Shown here in pieces: positions 43,109 through 54,764 of a stretch of 64,000 bases of DNA. The notes below the pieces were generated by a model. It ran no database searches, was not told where the DNA came from, and saw only the letters and a list, made by a program, of their open reading frames with translations. The DNA lies in NCBI GenBank assembly GCA_030425395.1, contig JAUIAS010000002.1:62001-126000 (forward strand), written 5' to 3'. Source of the stretch: Alphaproteobacteria bacterium. GTDB taxonomy: Bacteria; Pseudomonadota; Alphaproteobacteria; Rhodobacterales; Rhodobacteraceae. The stretch's first letter is position 1, and the number at the start of each line of letters is the position of its first letter. A program made the translations under genes and the position numbers.

Positions 43109-43234
43109 CTAGTTCAGGCGCACGGCGCTGCCGCTGGTTTGGTCTGCTGCGCTAAAGCCCAGTTCGCCGAGGCCATACCAGGCCCCGACCGAAATAACGG
43201 CGATTGCGACAAATGCGGTCATCATGGCTTTCAT
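43109..43234 (-). CDS. Small single-helix membrane peptide of the formate dehydrogenase locus
   Basis: 41 residues: MKAMMTAFVAIAVISVGAWY then GLGELGFSAADQTSGSAVRLN. The first 20 residues form a membrane helix or uncleaved signal; the remainder is polar. A strong AGGAAGA ribosome site lies seven bases before the ATG and supports a real gene, although it is below usual gene-calling lengths. It follows the WD40-cytochrome c gene by 58 bases on the same strand. A small accessory subunit of the formate dehydrogenase or of a cytochrome is possible; I do not know its function. Confidence 0.7.
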   Translation of the reverse strand: MKAMMTAFVAIAVISVGAWYGLGELGFSAADQTSGSAVRLN

Positions 43235-43292: not shown

Positions 43293-44564
43293 TTATCGGG
43301 TCGCCTGACGCAGATACGTGATCAGATCGTCCCTGTCTTCTGGATTGACGATCCGCTGCATCGGCATCTTGCTTCCGGGGATGTAGTGATCCGGTCCCAG
43401 ATCGAAAAGGGCGTCGATGCTGTCTTCGGTCCATATGATATCGGACCCGGCCAGCGTGTCGGAATAGGTATAATCGCTCACCGTTCCCGCCTGTCGACCG
43501 AACACACCAAAAAGCGTTGGTCCCGCGCGCCGGGCGCTGGATTCGGTCAGGCTGTGGCAGATCGAGCATTTGCGTTGGAACTGGCGTTCGCCGTTTTCCA
43601 TGTCCTCGGGCGGCCTGAGAAAACTATGCGCTTGCTGGCCCATGCGGTCATGCGCATCCATCGTGGCCACCGGCCAGCTGTACATCACCGGATCAAGCCC
43701 GCCCGCGTGAATGTTGGTGCCATCCCTTGAAAAGGCCAGCGCCCAGACCGGGCCGCGGCGGGTGGCGCGAAAGTCGCGTGTGATCCGCCATGCCCCGGTG
43801 TCGATGACCATGATATAGCCTTCGCCGTCGCCCACCGCCAATTGGCTGCGATCCGGCGACAGGGCCAGCGACAGGATCGGGCGGCGTTGCAGGCTGAAAT
43901 CGGCGATCTGCGCGCCGGTGTCGGCGTCGATGATGCGGGTCACCCCATCCACCGCGCCATAGGCGATCCAGCCGTCGGTTTCGTTCAGGACCATTTCGTT
44001 GATGCCGAACCCATGGCCAAGAATCTGGCGAATTTCGGTCCCGGCTTTCACGTCCCAAAGGCGCAGGGTGCCATCGGATGAGGCAGAATACAGCCGCGCG
44101 CCGTCGCCGGAGAAGGCCACCGCGTTTACGCCCGCGTCATGTCCGGTCAGAAACCGGGCTGGGGTGCCGGCGGTCAGTGGCCACAGGCCGATGCTGCCAT
44201 CCCAGCTCGCTGATGCAATGAGGTTCTGGCTATGGTCGATGCCCATGACCTTGCCCTGATGACGGCCCAGAACCGTCCCGCCGGGCCATTGTCTGACCGT
44301 AAAGTCATCGGCCCCCGACACCATCGACCCATGGGCGAAATGCACGGTGTTTACGGCCGCTTCGTGTCCGTCGTGCCATGCTGGCACACCGGTATCGGAC
44401 CAGAGCCCCACGGCATTGTCAAAGCTGGCCGTGGCGATCTGGTCGTTCGGGGATACGGCAATGCCCATGATCGGTCCGCCGTGCCCCTTGAGGGTAAAAA
44501 ACTCCTCTGCCGCACCGCTGTGCGGCAGAGCCAGTATCGCAAGCGCAAGAAGCGGTCGCACCAT
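43293..44564 (-). CDS. WD40 beta-propeller fused to a cytochrome c
   Basis: 423 residues from the ATG giving MVRPLLALAILALPHSGAAE, a cleavable signal peptide, so it is periplasmic. Residues 23 to about 305 form WD40 repeats (LASASWDGSIGLW-like units such as IATASFDNAVGLW, LYSASSDGTLRLWDV). Residues 325-423 are a class I cytochrome c with CSICH at 333-337 and the likely axial Met in GSKMPM (about 398-402). It starts five bases after the cytochrome b gene stop, and a longer upstream frame lies inside that gene. Probably it accepts electrons from, or docks a partner to, formate dehydrogenase; this is inference. Confidence 0.9.
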   Translation of the reverse strand: MVRPLLALAILALPHSGAAEEFFTLKGHGGPIMGIAVSPNDQIATASFDNAVGLWSDTGVPAWHDGHEAAVNTVHFAHGSMVSGADDFTVRQWPGGTVLGRHQGKVMGIDHSQNLIASASWDGSIGLWPLTAGTPARFLTGHDAGVNAVAFSGDGARLYSASSDGTLRLWDVKAGTEIRQILGHGFGINEMVLNETDGWIAYGAVDGVTRIIDADTGAQIADFSLQRRPILSLALSPDRSQLAVGDGEGYIMVIDTGAWRITRDFRATRRGPVWALAFSRDGTNIHAGGLDPVMYSWPVATMDAHDRMGQQAHSFLRPPEDMENGERQFQRKCSICHSLTESSARRAGPTLFGVFGRQAGTVSDYTYSDTLAGSDIIWTEDSIDALFDLGPDHYIPGSKMPMQRIVNPEDRDDLITYLRQATR

Positions 44565-44569
44565 CGGTT

Positions 44570-45781
44570 TTACTCGGCAGGGGATGCCGCGCCTTTGCTT
44601 GCGCGGACTTCCTCGACCCAAAGGCCATGGTGCTCCTTGGCCCATTGCTCTTCGACCTCGCCGGATCCCATGGCGTCAAAGGCACCTTCCATCCCGATGG
44701 ACCCGAGATAGATATGCGCAAAGATCATTGCCATGAACACGAATGCCACGATGGTGTGCCAAAGCTGGGCAAACTGCATTTCCTCGTGCGGGGCCATCTG
44801 TTCGGGCAAGGTGCCAAGGCCCAGCATTTGTGAAATGCCGAATTCGTTCAGCGTGGCGAAGGTTGACGCGAACATTGGCAATTCAAACGGGAACAAGAGC
44901 GACACGCCCGATGCCGAAATCGAAAGGCCCAGAACCACGCAGCCCCAGAAGATCATCTTCTGGCCCGCGTTGAACTTGCGCGCGGGCGGGTGGACGCCCT
45001 TGGAAAACAGTCCGCCTGCGACCGCCAGCCACTTCAGATCGTGCTTGTTGGGGATGTTGTGGACCGTCCAGTTCACGATGATGATGATCAGCCCCAGCAT
45101 GAACGCCCAAGCGACGTTGTTGTGGGCCCATTTCGACGCAGAGGCGAGCAGCGCAAAGCTGTCCTTGCCGAACAGCGGGATCATCACCGTGCGCCCGAAC
45201 AGGGTGATCAGACCCGTGGCACCAAGGATCAGGAAACTGCCCGCGAACAGCCAGTGTCCAAAGCGTTCAAAGCTGTTGAAGCGGGTGATCGTGCGGCCGG
45301 TCTTGGGGCCGTCGATGCGAATGCGTCCGCGCAGCAGGTAGAACACCGCCAGCGCCACCAATGTGCCACCCAAGAGCCACGCACCGTATTTCGACAGCGG
45401 GCCCTTGCGGAACTCCAGCCACCACATGCCCCGGTCCTGAATCAGAACGGCGGAGGCTGGCCCATTGTTGGACACGGTGACATCGGCAGTGCCATAGCGC
45501 AGGGATCGGAACACCTCGGAATCGGATGATCCGCCAAGCGTGCCAAGTTGTTCGGTGATCCCCGCGGCTGCTGTGCCGCCCGATTGTTTGCGGTGTGAAA
45601 AATCCGTGGTTTCGCCGCGTTGGCGGGCCAGGATATCTTCCAGGGTCGGGGCACCGCCTGTTGCGGCGCGCGGGTTTGTTTCGGTTGCCGTTTCAGCAGC
45701 CGTTTGGGCCGTCACGGGCCCGGCAAGGCCGGATACGGCGAAAATGGTCGTCAGGATCAGAGCAAATATTGCGCGAAGCAT
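44570..45781 (-). CDS. fdoI: Formate dehydrogenase gamma subunit, cytochrome b
   Basis: 403 residues. It begins with a signal-like segment (AIFALILTTIFAVSGLAG) and an extension of about 100 residues outside the membrane. Then come at least four helices: GAWLLGGTLVALAVFYLLRG, a helix at FGHWLFAGSFLILGATGL, WAFMLGLIIIIVNW and LWHTIVAFVFMAMIFAHIYLG. The histidines in FGHW, WAHNN, LWHT and FAHIY are likely heme b ligands. It passes electrons from the beta subunit to quinone. The N-terminal extension is typical of the long FdoI form found outside enterics. A strong hairpin separates it from the beta subunit gene. Confidence 0.93.
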   Translation of the reverse strand: MLRAIFALILTTIFAVSGLAGPVTAQTAAETATETNPRAATGGAPTLEDILARQRGETTDFSHRKQSGGTAAAGITEQLGTLGGSSDSEVFRSLRYGTADVTVSNNGPASAVLIQDRGMWWLEFRKGPLSKYGAWLLGGTLVALAVFYLLRGRIRIDGPKTGRTITRFNSFERFGHWLFAGSFLILGATGLITLFGRTVMIPLFGKDSFALLASASKWAHNNVAWAFMLGLIIIIVNWTVHNIPNKHDLKWLAVAGGLFSKGVHPPARKFNAGQKMIFWGCVVLGLSISASGVSLLFPFELPMFASTFATLNEFGISQMLGLGTLPEQMAPHEEMQFAQLWHTIVAFVFMAMIFAHIYLGSIGMEGAFDAMGSGEVEEQWAKEHHGLWVEEVRASKGAASPAE

Positions 45782-45915: not shown

Positions 45916-46509
45916 TCAGCCGCCCTTTTGTTCATAGGCGGTTCCCCAGCCCCAGGCACCGGATCCGAAACCGCGCGCCACGACGCGTTCGCGGTAGATC
46001 GCGGAAACGGTGTCACCGTCGCCTGCCAACAGCGCCTTGGTCGAACACATCTCGGCGCAGATGGGCAGTTTGCCCTCGGCGATCCGGTTGCGGCCGTACT
46101 TGGCGAATTCGGCGGTGGAGTGGGTTTCCTCGGGACCACCGGCGCAGAAGGTACATTTGTCCATCTTGCCGCGGCTTCCGAAGTTGCCTGCCTGCGGGAA
46201 CTGCGGCGCGCCAAAGGGGCACGCATAGAAGCAGTAGCCGCAACCGATGCAGAGATCCTTGGAGTGCAGCACCACACCGTCTTCGGTCTGGTAGAAGCAG
46301 TCCACGGGACAGACCGCCATACAGGGCGCATCCGAACAATGCATACAGGCCACCGAAATCGAGCGTTCGCCCGGTGTCCCGTCATTGATCGTCACGACCC
46401 GGCGGCGGTTGATGCCCCACGGAACCTCGTGTTCGTTCTTACAGGCCGTCACACATGCATTGCATTCGATGCAGCGCTCGGCATCACAGAGAAACTTAGC
46501 TCGTGCCAT
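45916..46509 (-). CDS. fdoH: Formate dehydrogenase beta subunit, iron-sulfur protein (Fdh3B type)
   Basis: 197 residues with four cysteine clusters for 4Fe-4S centres: CIECNACVTACKNE (about 13-26), CMHCSDAPCMAVCPVD (about 55-70), CIGCGYCFYACPFG (about 87-100) and CTFC with later CAEMC. It wires electrons from the alpha subunit to cytochrome b. It has no C-terminal membrane helix, unlike E. coli FdnH, so it is shorter and resembles the Fdh3B group. It lies 14 bases after the alpha gene. Confidence 0.95.
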   Translation of the reverse strand: MARAKFLCDAERCIECNACVTACKNEHEVPWGINRRRVVTINDGTPGERSISVACMHCSDAPCMAVCPVDCFYQTEDGVVLHSKDLCIGCGYCFYACPFGAPQFPQAGNFGSRGKMDKCTFCAGGPEETHSTAEFAKYGRNRIAEGKLPICAEMCSTKALLAGDGDTVSAIYRERVVARGFGSGAWGWGTAYEQKGG

Positions 46510-46523
46510 ATCTCATATCCTCC

Positions 46524-49418
46524 TTACGCTGACCAAATTTTGCACAGAGTCGCTTTGGTCTCTTGCATTTGTGTGACCGAGTCGTAGCCATAGGTTTGTG
46601 CCGTGTTGGTGGATTCACCAAGCACATAGGGATCGGCACCGTCGGGATATTTGTCCCGAAGATCCTTGCCCTCGAAATGGCCACCAAAGTGGAACGGCAT
46701 GAAGGCCACCCCGCTTCCGACCCGTTCGGTCACCATAGCCATAACCTTGACCTTGGCACCTTCGGGGCCTTCGACCCAGACCTGAGCCCCATCGCGCACA
46801 CCCAGATTGTTGGCGTCGCGTGGGTTGATCTCGACGAACATGTCCTGCTGAAGCTCGGCCAGCCACGGGTTGGAACGTGTTTCGTCCCCGCCGCCTTCAT
46901 ACTCGACCAGACGTCCCGAGGTGAGAACCATGGGATAGTCCTTGGAGAAGTCCTGCTTCTGGATGGACGCATACATGGTCGGCAAGCGATAGAACTTGCG
47001 GTCCTCGTATGTCGGATAGTCCGCCACCAGATCGCGCCGCGGCGTATAGAGCGGCTCGCGGTGGACCGGAACCGGATCCGGGAACGTCCAGACAACGGCA
47101 CGGGCCTTGGCATTGCCGAAGGGCGCACAGCCGTGCTTGATCGCGACCCGCTGGATACCGCCGGAAAGGTCGGTTTTCCAGTTGGTCTTGGGGCCGGCCA
47201 CCGCGTCGATCGCGGCACGTTCGTCCGCGGTCAGGTCGCCATCCCATCCCAGGTCCATCAGCATCTGCATGGTAAATTCGGGATATCCGTCCTGGATTTC
47301 CGAACCCACCGAATAGACGCCTTCGGCCAGCAGGTTGTCGCCATCGCGTTCCACACCGAAACGGGCGCGGAAGGTCAGGCCGCCTTCGGCCACCGGTTTG
47401 GACATGTCATAGAGATTGGGCGTGCCCGGGTGGTTCATCTCGGGCGTGCCCCAGCTTGGCCACGGCAGACCGTAGTAATCCCCATCGGCAGGCCCGCCAA
47501 TCGCCTGAAGCGTGGTCCGGTCAAAGGTATGCTGGTTTGCCATGTGCATCTTCAGGCGCTCCGGCGACTGGCCGGTATACCCGATGGTCCACATGCCGCG
47601 ATTGATCTCGCGCAGCGTGTCTTCGACGTTGGGCGTGTTTTCATCGTCCATCTTGATGTTGCGGAACAAACGGTCGGCAAAGCCGAACTTGTTCGCAAGC
47701 AGGCCGATGATTTCGTGATCGGGCTTGGACTCAAAGAGCGGGTCCACGACCTTTTCACGCCACTGGATGGACCGGTTCGACGCGGTCACCGAACCGCTGG
47801 TTTCGAACTGCGTGCACGCTGGCAGCAGGTAAACCCCGTCGGTGCGGTCATGAAGCACGGCGGAAACGGTGGGATACGGGTCGATCACGACCAGCATGTC
47901 CAGCTTTTCCATCGCTGTCTTCATTTCCTTCATCCGGGTCTGCGAGTTGGGCGCGTGGCCCCACAGAACCATGGCACGGACGTTGTTGGGCTGGTCCATG
48001 TTGTCGGCATCTTCAAGAACACCGTCGATCCAGCGGGACACAGGAATGCCCGTCAGGTTCATCAGGTTCTTTTCCTTGCCGTCCTTGGCGGTGACGGTAG
48101 CGAACTGACCCTTGAGCCAGTCGATATCCTCACCCCAGACGCGGGACCAGTGTGCCCAGGCTCCGCCGGACAGACCATAGTAACCCGGCAGCGTGTGCGA
48201 CAGAACACCAAGGTCCGTGGCACCCTGAACGTTGTCATGGCCGCGGAAGATGTTGGTGCCGCCACCCGACGTGCCCATGTTGCCAAGGGCCAGCTGCAGA
48301 ACGCAGTAGGCGCGGGTGTTGTTGTTGCCGTTGGTGTGCTGCGTGCCACCCATGCACCAGATCACGGTGCCGGGGCGGTTGTTGGCCATGGTCCGGGCCA
48401 CGCGGCGCAGTTGCGACCCGGGCGCACCGGTGACGCGTTCCACCTCTTCGGGGGTCCACTTGGCCACTTCTTCCTTGATCTGGTCCATACCCCAGACACG
48501 GGTGCGGATGAACTCTTTGTCCTCCCAGCCGTTTTCAAAGATGTGCCACAGGATACCCCAGACCAGCGCCACGTCGGTGCCGGGACGGAACCGGACGTAT
48601 TCATCCGCATGCGCCGCCGTGCGGGTAAAGCGCGGGTCGCAGACGATCACGGGCGCGTTGTTCTGTTCCTTGGCCTTGAGCAGGTGCAGGAGCGAAACCG
48701 GGTGCGCCTCGGCGGGGTTGCCGCCGATGATGAAGATGGCCTTGGAATTGTGGATGTCGTTGTAGGAATTGGTCATGGCGCCGTAGCCCCATGTATTCGC
48801 AACACCCGCAACCGTGGTCGAGTGACAGATACGGGCCTGGTGATCCACGTTGTTCGTGCCCCAGTAGGCGGCGAACTTGCGGAACAGATAGGCCTGTTCG
48901 TTGTTGTGCTTGGCCGAACCCAGCCAATAGACGCTGTCGGGTCCGCTTTCCTTGCGGATGTCCATCATGCCGTCGCCGATCTCGTTGATCGCCTGTTCCC
49001 AGCTGATGCGCTTCCACTCGCCGCCTTCCTTTTTCATCGGATACTTGAGGCGGCGTTCGCCGTGGGCGTGTTCACGCACCGCGGCACCCTTGGCGCAATG
49101 CGCGCCCATGTTGAACGGGCTGTCCCAGCCGGGTTCTTGCCCGACCCAGACACCGCTCTGAACTTCGGCAACAACCGTGCAGCCGACAGAACAATGTGTG
49201 CAGACGGATTTCACCGTCTCGACCGCACCCGCCGCCGCTGTTGCGGCGCTGGCCTTGGTCACCGTCCCGCCCGTTGCGCTGATCGCTGCCAGGCCACCGA
49301 TGGCCAGGCCCGATCCCCGCAGGAACGTGCGGCGGTCTACCGATTTCTCGGAGACCTCAGACAGGATACTTGCCCGCTGGGGGCGTCGCGCAACCCCGTT
49401 GGTCTTTTTCCTTAGCAT
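46524..49418 (-). CDS. fdoG: Formate dehydrogenase alpha subunit, Mo/W-bis-PGD catalytic subunit
   Basis: 964 residues with a long N-region and Tat signal (DRRTFLRGSGLAIGG, twin Arg at 29-30), so it is exported folded to the periplasm. The proximal 4Fe-4S cluster is held by Cys73, 76, 80 and 108. The active-site motif is HQARICHSTTVAGVANTWGYG, with the metal ligand Cys198 followed by the catalytic His199. E. coli FdnG has selenocysteine there; this enzyme uses Cys. The molybdopterin domains are complete to the C-terminus. A strong AAGGAAGG site precedes the ATG. It oxidises formate to CO2. Confidence 0.96.
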   Translation of the reverse strand: MLRKKTNGVARRPQRASILSEVSEKSVDRRTFLRGSGLAIGGLAAISATGGTVTKASAATAAAGAVETVKSVCTHCSVGCTVVAEVQSGVWVGQEPGWDSPFNMGAHCAKGAAVREHAHGERRLKYPMKKEGGEWKRISWEQAINEIGDGMMDIRKESGPDSVYWLGSAKHNNEQAYLFRKFAAYWGTNNVDHQARICHSTTVAGVANTWGYGAMTNSYNDIHNSKAIFIIGGNPAEAHPVSLLHLLKAKEQNNAPVIVCDPRFTRTAAHADEYVRFRPGTDVALVWGILWHIFENGWEDKEFIRTRVWGMDQIKEEVAKWTPEEVERVTGAPGSQLRRVARTMANNRPGTVIWCMGGTQHTNGNNNTRAYCVLQLALGNMGTSGGGTNIFRGHDNVQGATDLGVLSHTLPGYYGLSGGAWAHWSRVWGEDIDWLKGQFATVTAKDGKEKNLMNLTGIPVSRWIDGVLEDADNMDQPNNVRAMVLWGHAPNSQTRMKEMKTAMEKLDMLVVIDPYPTVSAVLHDRTDGVYLLPACTQFETSGSVTASNRSIQWREKVVDPLFESKPDHEIIGLLANKFGFADRLFRNIKMDDENTPNVEDTLREINRGMWTIGYTGQSPERLKMHMANQHTFDRTTLQAIGGPADGDYYGLPWPSWGTPEMNHPGTPNLYDMSKPVAEGGLTFRARFGVERDGDNLLAEGVYSVGSEIQDGYPEFTMQMLMDLGWDGDLTADERAAIDAVAGPKTNWKTDLSGGIQRVAIKHGCAPFGNAKARAVVWTFPDPVPVHREPLYTPRRDLVADYPTYEDRKFYRLPTMYASIQKQDFSKDYPMVLTSGRLVEYEGGGDETRSNPWLAELQQDMFVEINPRDANNLGVRDGAQVWVEGPEGAKVKVMAMVTERVGSGVAFMPFHFGGHFEGKDLRDKYPDGADPYVLGESTNTAQTYGYDSVTQMQETKATLCKIWSA

Positions 49419-49526: not shown

Positions 49527-49718
49527 TCAGAACCGGGCGCTGTCCAGATATGCGCGCGTATGCGCGGTGTCCTGAATCCGGGTTTCGCCGGTGGGCAGCT
49601 CTGCTGCCTCCGCCTGTGTCCCGGTCAGGGCTGCTGCGGCCACGGCAGCGGGTGCTGCGGTGCCGGCCAGCTTGAGGAAATCCCGACGCGATGCGCCGTT
49701 TTCCGTCTTGGTGCTCAT
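49527..49718 (-). CDS. Small twin-arginine signal protein of the formate dehydrogenase operon
   Basis: 63 residues. MSTKTENGASRRDFLKLAGT is a Tat signal (SRRDFLK), followed by a hydrophobic Ala-rich stretch to about residue 38 and a short mature part of about 25 residues. A GGAAGGAG site fits this ATG (spacing about 10) better than the ATG three codons upstream. Proteins of this kind sit just ahead of formate dehydrogenase alpha genes in many alpha- and betaproteobacteria. The role is uncertain, perhaps helping export or assembly. The alpha gene follows after 108 bases. Confidence 0.82.
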   Translation of the reverse strand: MSTKTENGASRRDFLKLAGTAAPAAVAAAALTGTQAEAAELPTGETRIQDTAHTRAYLDSARF

Positions 49719-49804
49719 GGGAAACATACTCCTTCCCCCTGTTGCGTTGAGGCCCGGCGCACTGCCGGACCGGCTCTGGTAACGGTCTGGTCCCGGATCG
49801 GGGC

Positions 49805-50428
49805 TCAGTCCGCCGTCATTCGGAAACCCTCGCGCTCGATCTCCATGAAGGCCCGGCCGGCAGTGCCGACCGATGCATAGAGAACCGAATTCTTGGCGGC
49901 TTCCAAATCCGAATAAAAATGACCGGCCCAAGGGCCGATATGCTTGTTCCAGAAAGTCTTCTGCTTATCGAGCGTGGCAGGTTCGCCAAAGCGGCCCACG
50001 ATCATCCCGGCCATCATCTCCATCAGAGAGGCAATGTTGTCTTCTGGTTCATAGACATTCGGCGCGCGGGTGATGCCGCGCGCGGCCATGTCATTGCGCA
50101 GTTGCGCCAGTGGTTTTTCGTTGAGAAACCCGGTCAGGTAATAGGACGCATAGGGCAAAAGCTCGCCGCGCCCCAAGCCGATGAACAGCGCGTTGAATTC
50201 GCGTTCCGCAGCGGCAGGTTTGGTCACTTTGGCAACACGGGCAAGGGCGGTTATCGCCTGTCCCAGATCGCTGTCGTCGCCCTCCAGACCGGCGGTTTGG
50301 TCAAGGATCATCTGATCCGGCGGACCGGCAAGAAGCAGGCCGAGGAAATTATAGAAATCCGCGCGCAGGCGGTCTTCTTCGGATACGGCGGTTTCGGTCA
50401 CGTCTGTCCTTTGCTGGGGCATGCTCAT
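49805..50428 (-). CDS. TorD-family molecular chaperone for formate dehydrogenase
   Basis: 207 residues, all-helical. The signature EPEDNIASLMEMMAGMI (about 130-146) matches the E(P)xDH-like motif of TorD/DmsD/NarJ chaperones, which bind Tat signal peptides and hold molybdoenzymes until the cofactor is inserted. PYASYYLTGFLNEKPLAQLR is also typical. It overlaps the DUF3306 gene by four bases and is two genes ahead of the catalytic subunit, so its client is almost surely the alpha subunit. Confidence 0.92.
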   Translation of the reverse strand: MSMPQQRTDVTETAVSEEDRLRADFYNFLGLLLAGPPDQMILDQTAGLEGDDSDLGQAITALARVAKVTKPAAAEREFNALFIGLGRGELLPYASYYLTGFLNEKPLAQLRNDMAARGITRAPNVYEPEDNIASLMEMMAGMIVGRFGEPATLDKQKTFWNKHIGPWAGHFYSDLEAAKNSVLYASVGTAGRAFMEIEREGFRMTAD

Positions 50429-51159
50429 GTCGAACTGTCCTCGAATGCGAACCGCAGACGGCGCCGGGGCAGGGCGGTCATCTCGGGGTCCTGCGTGTCA
50501 ATCTGGTATGGTGGTGGTGTGTCTTGGGGCGCGGCGGTCTCTGCGGTGGCCGGCGCAGGCATGTGATCCGCGGATTGGTCATGCGTTGTCTCGGGCGCGG
50601 TGTCCGCCAATGTTTCCGGCGGCAGTGTTTCCGGCGGCACATTTTCCGGCTGCACGTCTTCGCCGGGCAGGGTGGCTTTGCCAGTCGTGTCGTCGGCCTG
50701 AGCTTCGGCAACCACCCCGGTTGCGCCCGCTTCGGCTTCGGCTTCGGCCTCGGCGGCCTGCCGGGCCATTTCCTCGACGTGGCGCAGCATTCCCTTGCCA
50801 ACCTGATACGCGGTCTGGAGATTTTCGACCACGGTCGCGGCATCGGTGAAATCCTCACCGTAGTCCACCAGCCCATCGACATTGGCCAGCACCGGATTGA
50901 TCCGCCAGAGACGCCGAAGCGCCCGACGCCGCAACCGATCGGGAACAGCGGCCTTCATGAAATCCGCAACATCCGTTCCGGGTTCCAGCGTGTCGGGGTC
51001 GGGCAGACCAAGCTCGGCAAGGATTTCCTCGTCGGACTTTTCCTCCAGCTCGGCGCGGTCCTCGGCGATCTTGCGCGCCTCTATGGCCTTTTCCTCAGCC
51101 TCCCGTTCGGACTGAACCGCGGCCTTGCGTCTGGCCCAGAAATCGCCCCGCGCCGTCAT
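50425..51159 (-). CDS. DUF3306 family protein
   Basis: 244 residues. The N-terminal part FWARRKAAVQSEREAEEK is a charged helix; the core PDRLRRRALRRLWRINPVLANVDGLVDYGEDFTDAATV (about 74-111 in part) is the DUF3306 signature. The C-terminal half is low-complexity (Ala/Glu, then Pro/Thr). The family occurs with DUF3305 and TorD-type genes at formate dehydrogenase loci; its biochemical role is not established. It overlaps both neighbours by four bases, so translation is coupled. Confidence 0.88.
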   Translation of the reverse strand: MTARGDFWARRKAAVQSEREAEEKAIEARKIAEDRAELEEKSDEEILAELGLPDPDTLEPGTDVADFMKAAVPDRLRRRALRRLWRINPVLANVDGLVDYGEDFTDAATVVENLQTAYQVGKGMLRHVEEMARQAAEAEAEAEAGATGVVAEAQADDTTGKATLPGEDVQPENVPPETLPPETLADTAPETTHDQSADHMPAPATAETAAPQDTPPPYQIDTQDPEMTALPRRRLRFAFEDSST

Positions 51160-51713
51160 TGCACGACCTTCTTGCGTGGGGCGCGATAGACGTCGGACAC
51201 TTGGGAAATCCGCGCGTCACCAATCCCGTCCTGCACCAGATCGGTCCGCTTGCGGTCACGCTTGCGCTTGATGAATTCTTCGGTTTCGTAATGTTCAAAG
51301 GCGAAATCCCGCACCCACGCCGCCAGACCTTCGGTCATCGGCACCTTTTCGACGAGATCCTCGCCATTGTCGGCATAGTCCTGACCCTCGTAGGGAGACG
51401 CGGTCGCCACGGTGATTTCAAACGGATGATCGTCATCGGACTCGCGCATCACGACATAGATCGAAGGGATCGTATCGGCGAGATTGGCCAGATAGGCTTC
51501 GGCCTCGGCCGCCCAGAGCGTCAGATCGACCGTGCCCGCATGATATTCCACCGCCTCGCCCTCACGGCGCAATTCACGCCATTCGGCCGGGCCAGCTCCG
51601 GGAAGGACGGCCACGGGTTTCCAGCACCACTTCGCCCAGCGGGTTACGCCGGGCATTTTTCTCACAACAATGCCCAAAGGCATGTCAATGTGTATTGCCG
51701 CCGAAGCCGTCAA
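51156..51713 (-). CDS. DUF3305 family protein
   Basis: 185 residues from TTG 51713, or 175 from ATG 51683. I favour the TTG because GGGAGGAA lies at the right distance before it and the ATG lacks a ribosome site. The core is MPLGIVVRKMPGVTRWAKWCWKPVAVLPGAGP, the DUF3305 signature, followed by an acidic middle and a basic end (FIKRKRDRKRTDLVQ). The role is unknown; it is conserved with formate dehydrogenase. It is the first gene of the minus-strand operon, and overlaps DUF3306 by four bases. Confidence 0.83.
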   Translation of the reverse strand: MTASAAIHIDMPLGIVVRKMPGVTRWAKWCWKPVAVLPGAGPAEWRELRREGEAVEYHAGTVDLTLWAAEAEAYLANLADTIPSIYVVMRESDDDHPFEITVATASPYEGQDYADNGEDLVEKVPMTEGLAAWVRDFAFEHYETEEFIKRKRDRKRTDLVQDGIGDARISQVSDVYRAPRKKVVQ

Positions 51714-51849
51714 GCATTCCTCCCGCGCGCCGGAAGCAGATACGACACGCCCTTGCTTGCCAGTATGCAACGGTGTGCGGTTAGCGCCAAGCATAAATCC
51801 CGGTATTGGTCAGAAAAATTGGCCGCTGGCGTGGACAAATTTGAAAAAC

Positions 51850-51868: not shown

Positions 51869-52013
51869 TATAGCGCGGCCACTTCGGCATTTCGGCCTAT
51901 ATCCTTGGATGCTGCGGTGCGGCGCGAATCTGCGGGGAAAATCCCGTTGTGTGAGGGCTTTACCTTGCCCAACCTATATGCGTTCTTGTGCGCGCGACCG
52001 GGAGAGTGACGAA

Positions 52014-53969
52014 ATGCCTAGAAAATTGATCCTGTGTGATTGCGCAGGCAGCCAGACTCTTAATCCTGAGGAAATTGGTCAAAGTGGTGATATCGCTTGC
52101 AGCCGCGTGTACACTGCGCTCTGTACCGCGCAGGTGGATCGGGCCGCCGAAGAGATCAAGCAAGGCGATGCGATCCTTGCCTGCCAACAGGAAAGAGCCG
52201 TGTTCGAGGAACTGGCCGCGGACCTTGGTGTCGAGGCCCCCGGCTTTGTGGATCTGCGCGACCGCGCGGGCTGGTCCGATCAGGCCGCTGCCGCAGGCCC
52301 CAAAATGGCCGCTCTGGCCGCCGAGGCGCTGCTGCCATCGGCGCAGGCAAAGACAGTCGATGTTGTGTCCGAGGGATTGTGCCTGATCGTGGGGGCGGGC
52401 GATGTCGCGCTGCCGCTGGCCGAAATGCTCAAGGATCTTCTTGCGGTCACGGTTCTGGCAACCGACGCCGCCGAGCCTCCTTTGGATCGCGACATCGAAG
52501 TCGTGCATGGCCGTGTCCGCCGGGTGACCGGTGCGCTGGGCGGGTTCGAAGTGCACATTGACGGGTTGCGCCAGATTGATCCAGCGGGGCGCGGCGGGTT
52601 CTCGATGTCCGAACCGCGCGATGGCGGGCGCACCGCCTGCGATATCTTTATCGACCTGACCGGCGACACGCCTTTCGTGCCCGCCCCGCAAAAACGCGAA
52701 GGTTACCTGTGTGCCGATCCGCGCGACGCCCGCGCGGTGGCACGGCTGGCGCTGGAAGCGTCCCAGCTGACGGGCACCTTTGAAAAGCCGTTGTATATCC
52801 GGCTCGATGAATCGCTTTGCGCCCATTCGCGGGCGTCCAAGGCGGGCTGTTCGCGGTGCCTTGATATCTGTCCCACCGGGGCGATCACGTCCGCTGGCGA
52901 CCACGTGGCCATTGACCCGATGGTGTGTGCGGGCTGCGGGGCGTGCGCTGCGCTGTGCCCGTCCACGGCGATCACTTATGACGATCCGCCTTTGGGTCAT
53001 GTGCTCCGCCGGATGCAGGTGCTGGCCTCGACCTTCCGCAGCGCGGGCGGTTCCGCGCCGCGCCTTCTGGTGCATGACGGCCACGGGGCGGAGATGATCC
53101 GCCTTGCCGCTCGGTTCGGTCGCGGTCTTCCCGCGGATGTGGTGCCGCTGGAACTGGCCGTCATATCCGGGTTTGGCCATGCCGAGATGCTGGCCGCGCT
53201 GGCGCATGGTTTTGCCAGCGTTCAGGTGCTGCTTGCCCCCACGACCGAACGTGACGCGCTTGAGCGCGAAACGGCTCTGGCCACGGCCATTGCAGGCGCG
53301 CAGAAGGCCGGACTTCTGGATATGGACGACCCGGACGCCCTTTCCGATGCGCTTTACGGCACCACGCCGCCCGCGCCGGTGGCGACGCCGGTCCTGCCGC
53401 TGGGCAATCGCCGTCAGGTGGCGCGGCTGGCCGCGCAGGCGCTCAACCCCGATGCGACCGAGCCTCTGGCGCTGCCGCAGGGGGCACCTTACGGGGCCAC
53501 GCTGGTGGATACGGACGCCTGCACCTTGTGCCTGTCGTGCGTGTCATTGTGCCCCTCGGGTGCTTTGGTGGAAAACCCCGACAAGCCGCAGTTGCGCTTT
53601 CAGGAGGATGCCTGTCTGCAATGCGGGCTGTGCACCGAGGTGTGCCCGGAAAACGCGATCGCCCTCAAGCCGCAGCTTGACCTGACCGATGCGGCCCTGA
53701 CCCAGCGCGTCCTGAACGAGGAAGACCCCTTTGCCTGTATCGAATGCGGGTCGCTGTTCGGCGTGCGGTCCACCGTGGAACGGATCATGGAAAAGCTGTC
53801 CGGCAGCCACCCGATGTTCGCCACCTCAGAACAGGCAAAAATGATCCAGATGTGTGATAATTGCCGCGTGAATGCGCAGTTCCATTCGCAGAACAACCCC
53901 TTCGCGGGCAAGGAACGCCCGCGCGTGCGCACCACCGAAGACTATTACTCAGATCGCAAGGATCATTGA
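52014..53969 (+). CDS. 4Fe-4S poly-ferredoxin protein of the formate dehydrogenase locus
   Basis: 651 residues from the ATG with GGGAGAG before it; 35 more codons are open upstream. It has four 4Fe-4S motifs in two pairs: CSRCLDICPTG and CAGCGACAALCPS (about 279-315), then CTLCLSCVSLCPSG and CLQCGLCTEVCPEN (about 503-545), with further CIECG (about 577) and CDNC (about 612). No signal peptide or membrane helix, so it is cytoplasmic. It is divergent from the DUF3305-fdo operon and converges, with a seven-base overlap, with the cytochrome c gene. It may donate electrons for enzyme maturation; this is unproven. Confidence 0.88.
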   Translation: MPRKLILCDCAGSQTLNPEEIGQSGDIACSRVYTALCTAQVDRAAEEIKQGDAILACQQERAVFEELAADLGVEAPGFVDLRDRAGWSDQAAAAGPKMAALAAEALLPSAQAKTVDVVSEGLCLIVGAGDVALPLAEMLKDLLAVTVLATDAAEPPLDRDIEVVHGRVRRVTGALGGFEVHIDGLRQIDPAGRGGFSMSEPRDGGRTACDIFIDLTGDTPFVPAPQKREGYLCADPRDARAVARLALEASQLTGTFEKPLYIRLDESLCAHSRASKAGCSRCLDICPTGAITSAGDHVAIDPMVCAGCGACAALCPSTAITYDDPPLGHVLRRMQVLASTFRSAGGSAPRLLVHDGHGAEMIRLAARFGRGLPADVVPLELAVISGFGHAEMLAALAHGFASVQVLLAPTTERDALERETALATAIAGAQKAGLLDMDDPDALSDALYGTTPPAPVATPVLPLGNRRQVARLAAQALNPDATEPLALPQGAPYGATLVDTDACTLCLSCVSLCPSGALVENPDKPQLRFQEDACLQCGLCTEVCPENAIALKPQLDLTDAALTQRVLNEEDPFACIECGSLFGVRSTVERIMEKLSGSHPMFATSEQAKMIQMCDNCRVNAQFHSQNNPFAGKERPRVRTTEDYYSDRKDH

Positions 53970-54694
53970 TATTGCAGCGGCGCGCCCAGATCGGCTGCGG
54001 GCACCGTGGCCACATAGGCCAGTATTGCCTCAAGATCGTCCACGGTCATCTCGACCGGGACGATGGGCGACGGGCGCGCAGGGTCGAACGGGTCGGTGAC
54101 GTCGATCACCTGGGTAAAGGCCGGATGCGGGGCCAGCACATAGAAGATCTGGAACTTGGTGTCCCAGTCAGGCAGCGTGCGGAGCACGGCAAAGGATGGG
54201 GTCGACCCGATGCTGTTCTTGGCGTTCTGCGGACCGATCACGTGACACCGTCCGCACAGCATCAGCGACGCCTGCGCGCCCCGTTCGACATCGCCTTCGA
54301 ACCGCGGTCCGGTCTCTTCCTCGACAATCCTGATGGTGCTGCTGAACACCTTCGCGCCGTCGATCTCGAATGCGTCCACCGTGCGCCGCCCGATATCCGA
54401 CACCAGCCAATCCGAGAACCGCTGCGCGCGCGGATCGTCCGGGATCGACAGGTAATAGACCGTGCCGTCGCGTTCAAAAACCGGCGTGCCGGGCGTTGTT
54501 TCGGTCAGCCGGATCGCACCCGCGCTGTCCTCGGCCAGACGAATACCGGTTTTCAAAGAGAAACGCGGCAATATATATCGCAAGAGACCCGTGTCGCTGA
54601 CGCTCTGCGGAGCGGACAGGCCAAGCGGGGCTTCCTGGGCGGCCAGCGGCACACACCCCAGAAGACACGACAGGAAAACGGCAAGACATCGCAT
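53963..54694 (-). CDS. Periplasmic cytochrome c with a long N-terminal domain
   Basis: 243 residues from the ATG giving MRCLAVFLSCLLGCVPLAAQ, a signal peptide (it could also be a lipoprotein). About 100 residues of unknown fold follow (SDTGLLRYILPRFSLKTGIRL resembles part of a substrate-binding protein), then a single cytochrome c domain with CGRCH at 147-151. Longer upstream reading frames lie on the opposite strand of the next gene. The gene overlaps the poly-ferredoxin stop by seven bases and is divergent from DUF6494. It is a likely electron carrier for formate dehydrogenase. Confidence 0.85.
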   Translation of the reverse strand: MRCLAVFLSCLLGCVPLAAQEAPLGLSAPQSVSDTGLLRYILPRFSLKTGIRLAEDSAGAIRLTETTPGTPVFERDGTVYYLSIPDDPRAQRFSDWLVSDIGRRTVDAFEIDGAKVFSSTIRIVEEETGPRFEGDVERGAQASLMLCGRCHVIGPQNAKNSIGSTPSFAVLRTLPDWDTKFQIFYVLAPHPAFTQVIDVTDPFDPARPSPIVPVEMTVDDLEAILAYVATVPAADLGAPLQYQ

Positions 54695-54764
54695 GATGTC
54701 ACGATAGTGTCCGCCATCACGTGCGGTCAATGAAATTGAGACAAGGCAGCAAGAGGGGAAACAC

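Follow-up and report, generated by a model that had tools for sequence, protein, structure and literature searches.

What does a WD40 propeller fused to a cytochrome c do at the end of a formate dehydrogenase operon, and does it lead electrons around the quinone pool? The gene in question, WDcyt, lies in the window (the whole stretch of 64,000 nucleotides analysed here, from an alphaproteobacterium of the Rhodobacteraceae). The operon reads, in order, DUF3305, DUF3306, TorD-like protein, small Tat protein, fdhA, fdhB, fdhC, WDcyt and a 41-aa peptide, with a divergent Fe-S gene upstream. The features are the following.

51909..53969, plus strand: 4Fe-4S "polyferredoxin-like" protein, divergent, in the wider FDH3 cluster
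51156..51794, minus strand: DUF3305 protein (Pfam)
50425..51159, minus strand: DUF3306 protein (Pfam)
49805..50428, minus strand: TorD-like maturation chaperone (PF02613)
49527..49727, minus strand: small Tat-signal protein of FDH3 operons, 66 aa, RRDFLKLAG (start chosen by eye; annotated equivalent in a public record)
46524..49418, minus strand: fdhA, alpha, molybdopterin subunit, Tat signal RRTFLRGSG (PF00384, 186 bits)
45916..46509, minus strand: fdhB, FDH3 beta, 4Fe-4S subunit (NF038355, 347.4 bits vs cut-off 240)
44570..45781, minus strand: fdhC, gamma, cytochrome b subunit with N-terminal signal and periplasmic arm (TIGR01583, 130.3 bits vs cut-off 115.85)
43293..44564, minus strand: WDcyt, the WD40–cytochrome c fusion, 423 aa (start 44564, stop 43293)
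WDcyt residues ~1-20: signal peptide, Sec-type
WDcyt residues ~21-312: 7-bladed WD40 propeller
WDcyt residues ~320-422: class-I cytochrome c domain, C-terminal
43109..43234, minus strand: hydrophobic 41-aa peptide downstream of WDcyt, conserved at other loci (consensus C-terminus GFSaa...VRLD)

By the scores of its beta and gamma subunits, both above cut-off, the operon encodes an FDH3-type formate dehydrogenase, and formate oxidation is its predicted reaction. FDH3 (NF038355) is a type that we take to be named after Methylobacterium extorquens fdh3ABC. The window shares with it fdhA, an fdhB above cut-off, fdhC as gamma, the TorD chaperone, DUF3305/3306 and the small Tat protein, and differs from it by the extra WD40–cytochrome c gene at the 3′ end. 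FdhA scores below the cut-off of TIGR01591, the Fdh-alpha equivalog (495.5 vs 666.25 bits), and is hence not filed there; its equivalent in a public record with the same operon is named formate dehydrogenase subunit alpha.

Two minor elements flank this core. The 41-aa peptide has a tblastn match at 45 of 114 loci, many of the 114 being too short or diverged, and its pattern was not seen in the 25 loci lacking a close WDcyt (L164-L188); a count of small ORFs at the loci gave at least 37 of 109. Its equivalent is a hypothetical CDS in the Sagittula annotation. At the other end, a protein with a single CGRCH heme motif and no Pfam match (53963-54703, minus strand) adjoins the divergent Fe-S gene, and ORFs with one heme motif occupy the same place in several other loci.

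A sequence-only reading of the locus had placed the fusion at 43293-44564, which is exact, though it did not give the strand (minus). It had also described a signal peptide, WD40 repeats and one CSICH heme domain in a single chain, five bases behind the cytochrome b gene, and all of this is borne out: fdhC stops at 44570, Pfam recognizes both domains, and there is one CxxCH. The Sec-type signal peptide (assigned by eye) is MVRPLLALAILALPHSGAAEE, from which we infer export by Sec. The propeller exceeds the gathering score of WD40 PF00400 (124.7 bits vs 27), and residues 323-421 that of Cytochrom_C PF00034 (40.4 bits vs 21.3). The heme motif is at 333-337 and the candidate Met ligand is M400, in PGSKMP; all 39 diverse homologues compared have C333, C336, H337 and M400, within the family signature LF..GP....PG.KMP.Q. 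Among 25 distant homologues, the cytochrome is better conserved relative to the window protein (mean identity 52%) than the propeller (32%). An AlphaFold2 model built on a 49-sequence alignment (mean pLDDT 89.5, pTM 0.86) has strands giving seven blades, as counted by eye from the strand list, and after them the helices of the cytochrome; confidence is low in the Met loop (390-402), and the model contains no heme. Its best solved match in Foldseek is the bacterial WD40 domain of PkwA (5yzv, TM-score 0.90 by target length). In sequence, the nearest relatives of the cytochrome domain are electron carriers of the mitochondrial and c-550 types. Its best NCBIfam match, the Bradyrhizobium c-550 CycA (NF043008), is far below cut-off (59.6 vs 240 bits).

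The distribution of WDcyt follows that of FDH3. In a draw of 149 genomes of the family, WDcyt (E ≤ 1e-40) is present in 50 and FDH3-beta in 74, and all 50 have both; in a class draw of 289 genomes (E ≤ 1e-25) the numbers are 31 and 39, with an overlap of 29/31; and in a phylum draw of 299 genomes they are 17 and 41, with an overlap of 17/17. Fisher tests give p = 1.3e-21, 4.5e-29 and 7.0e-17, respectively, values that are indicative only, the genomes being related. In the phylum draw, WDcyt is confined to Alphaproteobacteria (17 genomes of 17); the FDH3 genomes from other classes, 20 in number, all lack it. The two exceptions in the class draw are G275, a partial match to WD40 only with no FDH3-beta overlap, and G375, an 80% complete genome in which fdhC is on the WDcyt contig and FDH3-beta was not detected. 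For 5 of the 31 class matches (G205, G235, G275, G347 and G373), the search output covered the cytochrome alone or part of the propeller alone. Homologues in the 50 family genomes cover nearly the full length of WDcyt, so the architecture is not due to chance. The sequence-only reading would by its own terms have been refuted had the fusion been absent elsewhere, and proposed a search of other formate dehydrogenase loci; that search found it in all three draws and at 80 named loci.

The reverse dependence does not hold. WDcyt was not found in 24 of the 74 FDH3 genomes of the family; one of these (G036, locus L183) has a divergent full-length copy with 30% identity, under the threshold of that search, and 22 of the 24 genomes were examined (all but G029 and G130). 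Because FDH3 is found without WDcyt in many genomes, the enzyme must work without it. When the cytochrome alone was searched in the class draw, 79 of 289 genomes had matches at E ≤ 1e-17, and among these 29 score at least 87 bits, the other cytochromes reaching at most 80.7. Of the 29, 28 have FDH3 (with a partial FDH3-beta match in G149) and the last is G375. The step in bit score is imperfect, as the WDcyt of G304 and the second one of G173 score 78-79 bits by the cytochrome alone. By these searches, the WDcyt cytochrome subfamily is FDH3-specific.

Gene order gives the same picture. Of the 50 WDcyt genes of the family draw, 47 follow fdhB on its strand at a distance of no more than 3.4 kb (40 of them at no more than 2.5 kb); the others are 3 Mb away (G140) or on another contig (G062 and G101). 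A further unlinked copy, in G183, is about 85 kb from the FDH3 locus. FdhC is encoded upstream of WDcyt at all 80 named loci. These were the top 80 among 121 confirmed matches to a query taken from the window, and so favour close relatives; they include Ruegeria, Sedimentitalea, Sulfitobacter, Roseovarius, Roseibium and Defluviicoccus. At 101 loci where it could be measured, some genomes being counted twice, the gap between fdhC and WDcyt is at most 30 bp in 97, with values of 0 in 46 and -4 in 11. In six genomes (G082, G004, G132, G133, G002 and G279), long open frames of 553 to 1170 codons suggested an in-frame fusion of FdhC and WDcyt, which was rejected: the two are in different frames in 6/6, and the long frames are thus artefacts of G+C-rich DNA.

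The pairing with fdhC persists where fdhB is elsewhere. Four loci (L099, L083, L223 and L279, in genomes G706, G707, G062 and G101) have fdhC and WDcyt without a nearby fdhB. Whole-genome searches place FDH3-beta on another contig in each, with a single fdhC match, which adjoins WDcyt. The assemblies of G707 and G101 are fragmentary there and a contig break is possible, whereas the sites in G062 and G706 are well inside contigs. Since the sole fdhC stays with WDcyt away from fdhB, FdhC is likely its partner. The link to formate dehydrogenase made by the sequence-only reading is thus strongly supported by co-occurrence, synteny and displacement shared with fdhC, and by co-occurrence and gene order WDcyt appears dedicated to the alphaproteobacterial FDH3.

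Some lineages have the two domains as separate genes. A WD40 protein with a signal peptide and a separate, adjoining, convergent cytochrome c are found in G235 (L190), G347 (L191) and G373 (L264), and split pairs also occur in G350 (L197) and G276 (L199); in G192 (L193) the WD40 protein is alone, no cytochrome being seen beside it. Four of the five pairs adjoin FDH3 genes; the fifth, L264, is separated from the FDH3 locus of G373, which is on a different contig. In a cytochrome tree of 38 rows, the fused cytochromes form one clade (support 98/94), which L190, L191 and L264 join (98/97) and outside which L197 and L199 fall. In the WD40 tree, whose bootstrap is not fully settled, all six split WD40 proteins group together in a single clade (98/90). 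The simplest reading suggested by these trees, whose root is not fixed, is a single fusion event.

Does WDcyt then take electrons that would otherwise go to quinone? In Escherichia coli Fdn-N, the four heme-b histidines and the quinone-site positions of gamma (1kqf chain C) align with those of FdhC, and we presume that the residues have the same roles here; the window FdhC differs by its signal peptide, its periplasmic arm and an extra membrane helix. Fdn-N is not known to have a cytochrome c partner. Among 188 distinct full-length FdhC sequences, 109 come from WDcyt loci, 48 from loci without it and 31 from neither group. The heme-b histidines H176, H220, H342 and H356 are kept in 109/109 and 48/48. 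The quinone-site residues N271, G273 and K275 are present in 109/109 and Q274 in 108/109 of the sequences from WDcyt loci; at loci without WDcyt, N271, G273 and K275 are each present in 47/48, and Q274 in 33/48 (15 have E). Loss of the quinone site in WDcyt carriers is therefore rejected, and the earlier proposal that a link to a c-type carrier would bypass quinone does not find support. Since these residues are kept, quinone reduction is presumably intact, and our proposal is a branch running parallel to quinone, not a bypass of it.

The periplasmic arm of FdhC might be a docking module specific to WDcyt; this was rejected, as the arm is alike in length with and without WDcyt (median 170 vs 170 residues before H176), and its identity to the window declines in step with that of the membrane part, leaving no specific signal. 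A conserved charged patch on the cytochrome was likewise rejected: among 149 domains no consistent net charge was found (K+R-D-E, mean -0.1, range -6 to +12), and with such variation a conserved electrostatic docking surface is not evident. Co-divergence was measured as the residual correlation after removing TorD and DUF3305 distances. Over 71 loci, the cytochrome correlates with the FdhC arm (0.40), FdhB (0.40), the FdhC membrane part (0.31) and FdhA (0.27), and the propeller with the same four at 0.17, 0.15, 0.15 and 0.01. Over 61 close loci, the values are 0.25, 0.31, 0.45 and 0.04 for the cytochrome and 0.18, 0.20, 0.31 and 0.18 for the propeller. The cytochrome may thus lean to FdhC and FdhB over FdhA, a trend that is suggestive only, being weak and different between the locus sets. 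The method is blunt, as the known pair FdhA–FdhB gives 0.64 (71 loci) and 0.14 (61 close loci).

WDcyt is very probably an unrecognised part of the electron wiring of FDH3. Our tentative choice, held at a little under even probability, is that it is a dedicated periplasmic accessory subunit that would give FDH3 a c-type exit parallel to quinone. The propeller would dock WDcyt on the periplasmic face of FdhC/FdhB, and the single His/Met heme c would take electrons from the clusters of FdhB or from the periplasmic heme b of FdhC and pass them to the c-type cytochrome pool and a terminal oxidase; this route would be a second exit beside the quinone site and not its replacement. Class-I cytochromes with His/Met ligation are normally at high potential, so transfer from formate to heme c would be downhill and the reverse implausible. 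The dependence of WDcyt on FDH3 and the adjacency to fdhC count for this reading, as do the stronger conservation of the cytochrome, the FDH3-specificity of its subfamily, the split gene pairs and the residual co-divergence with FdhC and FdhB. Against it count FDH3 without WDcyt elsewhere, the intact quinone site, the unlinked copies of G140 and G183, the weak co-divergence and the inconsistent charge. In its fullest form, which is possible rather than probable, the alphaproteobacterial FDH3 would have a fourth, periplasmic WD40–cytochrome c subunit bound to the cytochrome b subunit, and formate electrons would go either to quinone, conserving energy, or, without passing through bc1, straight to the cytochrome c pool and oxidase.

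The main rival, which we consider unlikely, is that WDcyt serves above all to assemble, stabilise or anchor FdhC–FdhAB; the propeller would then do the work, and the heme would have a structural role or act as a redox check. In favour of this are the general use of WD40 propellers for docking, the tie of WDcyt to fdhC together with the absence of WDcyt from FDH3 in other lineages, and the solitary WD40 neighbour of G192. Against it, the cytochrome outconserves the propeller, with heme and Met ligands kept throughout the 39 diverse sequences, and split lineages retain the cytochrome as a gene of its own. Rather improbable is a place downstream of the quinone pool, with FDH3 reducing quinone only and WDcyt receiving its electrons, close to the enzyme, from cytochrome bc1 or the c pool, e.g., sensing respiratory state; the intact quinone site of FdhC and the resemblance to mitochondrial-type and c-550 carriers are consistent with this, but a general carrier would not be expected to depend strictly on FDH3 or to adjoin fdhC. 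That WDcyt is a coincidental neighbour or general cytochrome, as the few unlinked copies might suggest, is highly improbable, since it accompanies FDH3 and keeps its gene order in three draws and at the 80 named loci (the top-scoring ones among 121), and since the cytochrome subfamily is rare without FDH3 (28/29 class genomes at ≥ 87 bits have it).

How does the accessory subunit proposed here compare with known systems? A propeller and a cytochrome c in one exported, periplasmic chain are known from cytochrome cd1 and quinohemoprotein alcohol dehydrogenases, whose propellers are not WD40 but eight-bladed and cofactor-bearing, whereas that of WDcyt is a seven-bladed WD40. No description of WDcyt was found in searches of the literature on FDH/FDH3, prokaryotic WD40 proteins, cytochrome c-553 and Ruegeria, most subscription papers lying outside their scope, nor in passages of PMC5934484, PMC12445348, PMC12542740 and PMC10385643. 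The partners of formate dehydrogenases include quinones, NAD, F420, ferredoxin, cytochrome b and cytochromes c, according to passages of PMC13397495, in which the term "WD40" was not found. As described there, Desulfovibrio FdhABC3 is a formate dehydrogenase with a tetraheme cytochrome c subunit; it resembles the present system as a periplasmic enzyme with a dedicated c-type cytochrome subunit, and differs in that here the class-I cytochrome has a single heme and is joined to WD40, and a membrane cytochrome b is still present. In public annotation, 17 plasmid records have a WDcyt match: the gene is called "c-type cytochrome" in 10 (7 Rhodobacterales-type and 3 Bradyrhizobium) and "hypothetical protein" in 4 from Sinorhizobium, and 3 are without annotation; where the context was looked at, the gene lies beside fdh3B.

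FDH3, a periplasmic enzyme of the quinone type, is present in about half of the sampled Rhodobacteraceae-type family (74/149) and elsewhere in the Alphaproteobacteria. In these bacteria the known wiring of formate oxidation is incomplete, for the membrane subunit is linked to a conserved WD40–cytochrome c partner that has no name. If the branch exists, the energy yield of formate could be switched from one exit to the other, and bioelectrocatalysis would gain in FDH3 a natural wire with a single heme.

Other variants of the FDH3 locus were seen. An NtrC-type regulator follows fdhC, or the module replacing it, in 11 of the 22 FDH3 genomes examined among those lacking WDcyt above threshold (L168, L170-L175 and L178-L181), often with an sCache histidine kinase; at L171:10140-13453 and equivalents, the response regulator and kinase come directly after fdhC and are perhaps formate-responsive. 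In another variant (L038:4807-7963, L281, L282, L172, L177, L178 and L179), a second type of FdhC precedes two further genes, one for a NarI-like cytochrome b and one for a CCG-domain (DsrK/HdrD-like) Fe-S protein, the NarI-like gene not being picked up at L172. These two genes form an alternative electron module for FDH3, and at L038, L281 and L282 they lie between fdhC and WDcyt (L038 and L281, between which these genes do not differ, count as one). Finally, at L073:5513-6484, a gene with glycine/aspartate-rich, calcium-binding-like repeats lies between fdhB and fdhC.
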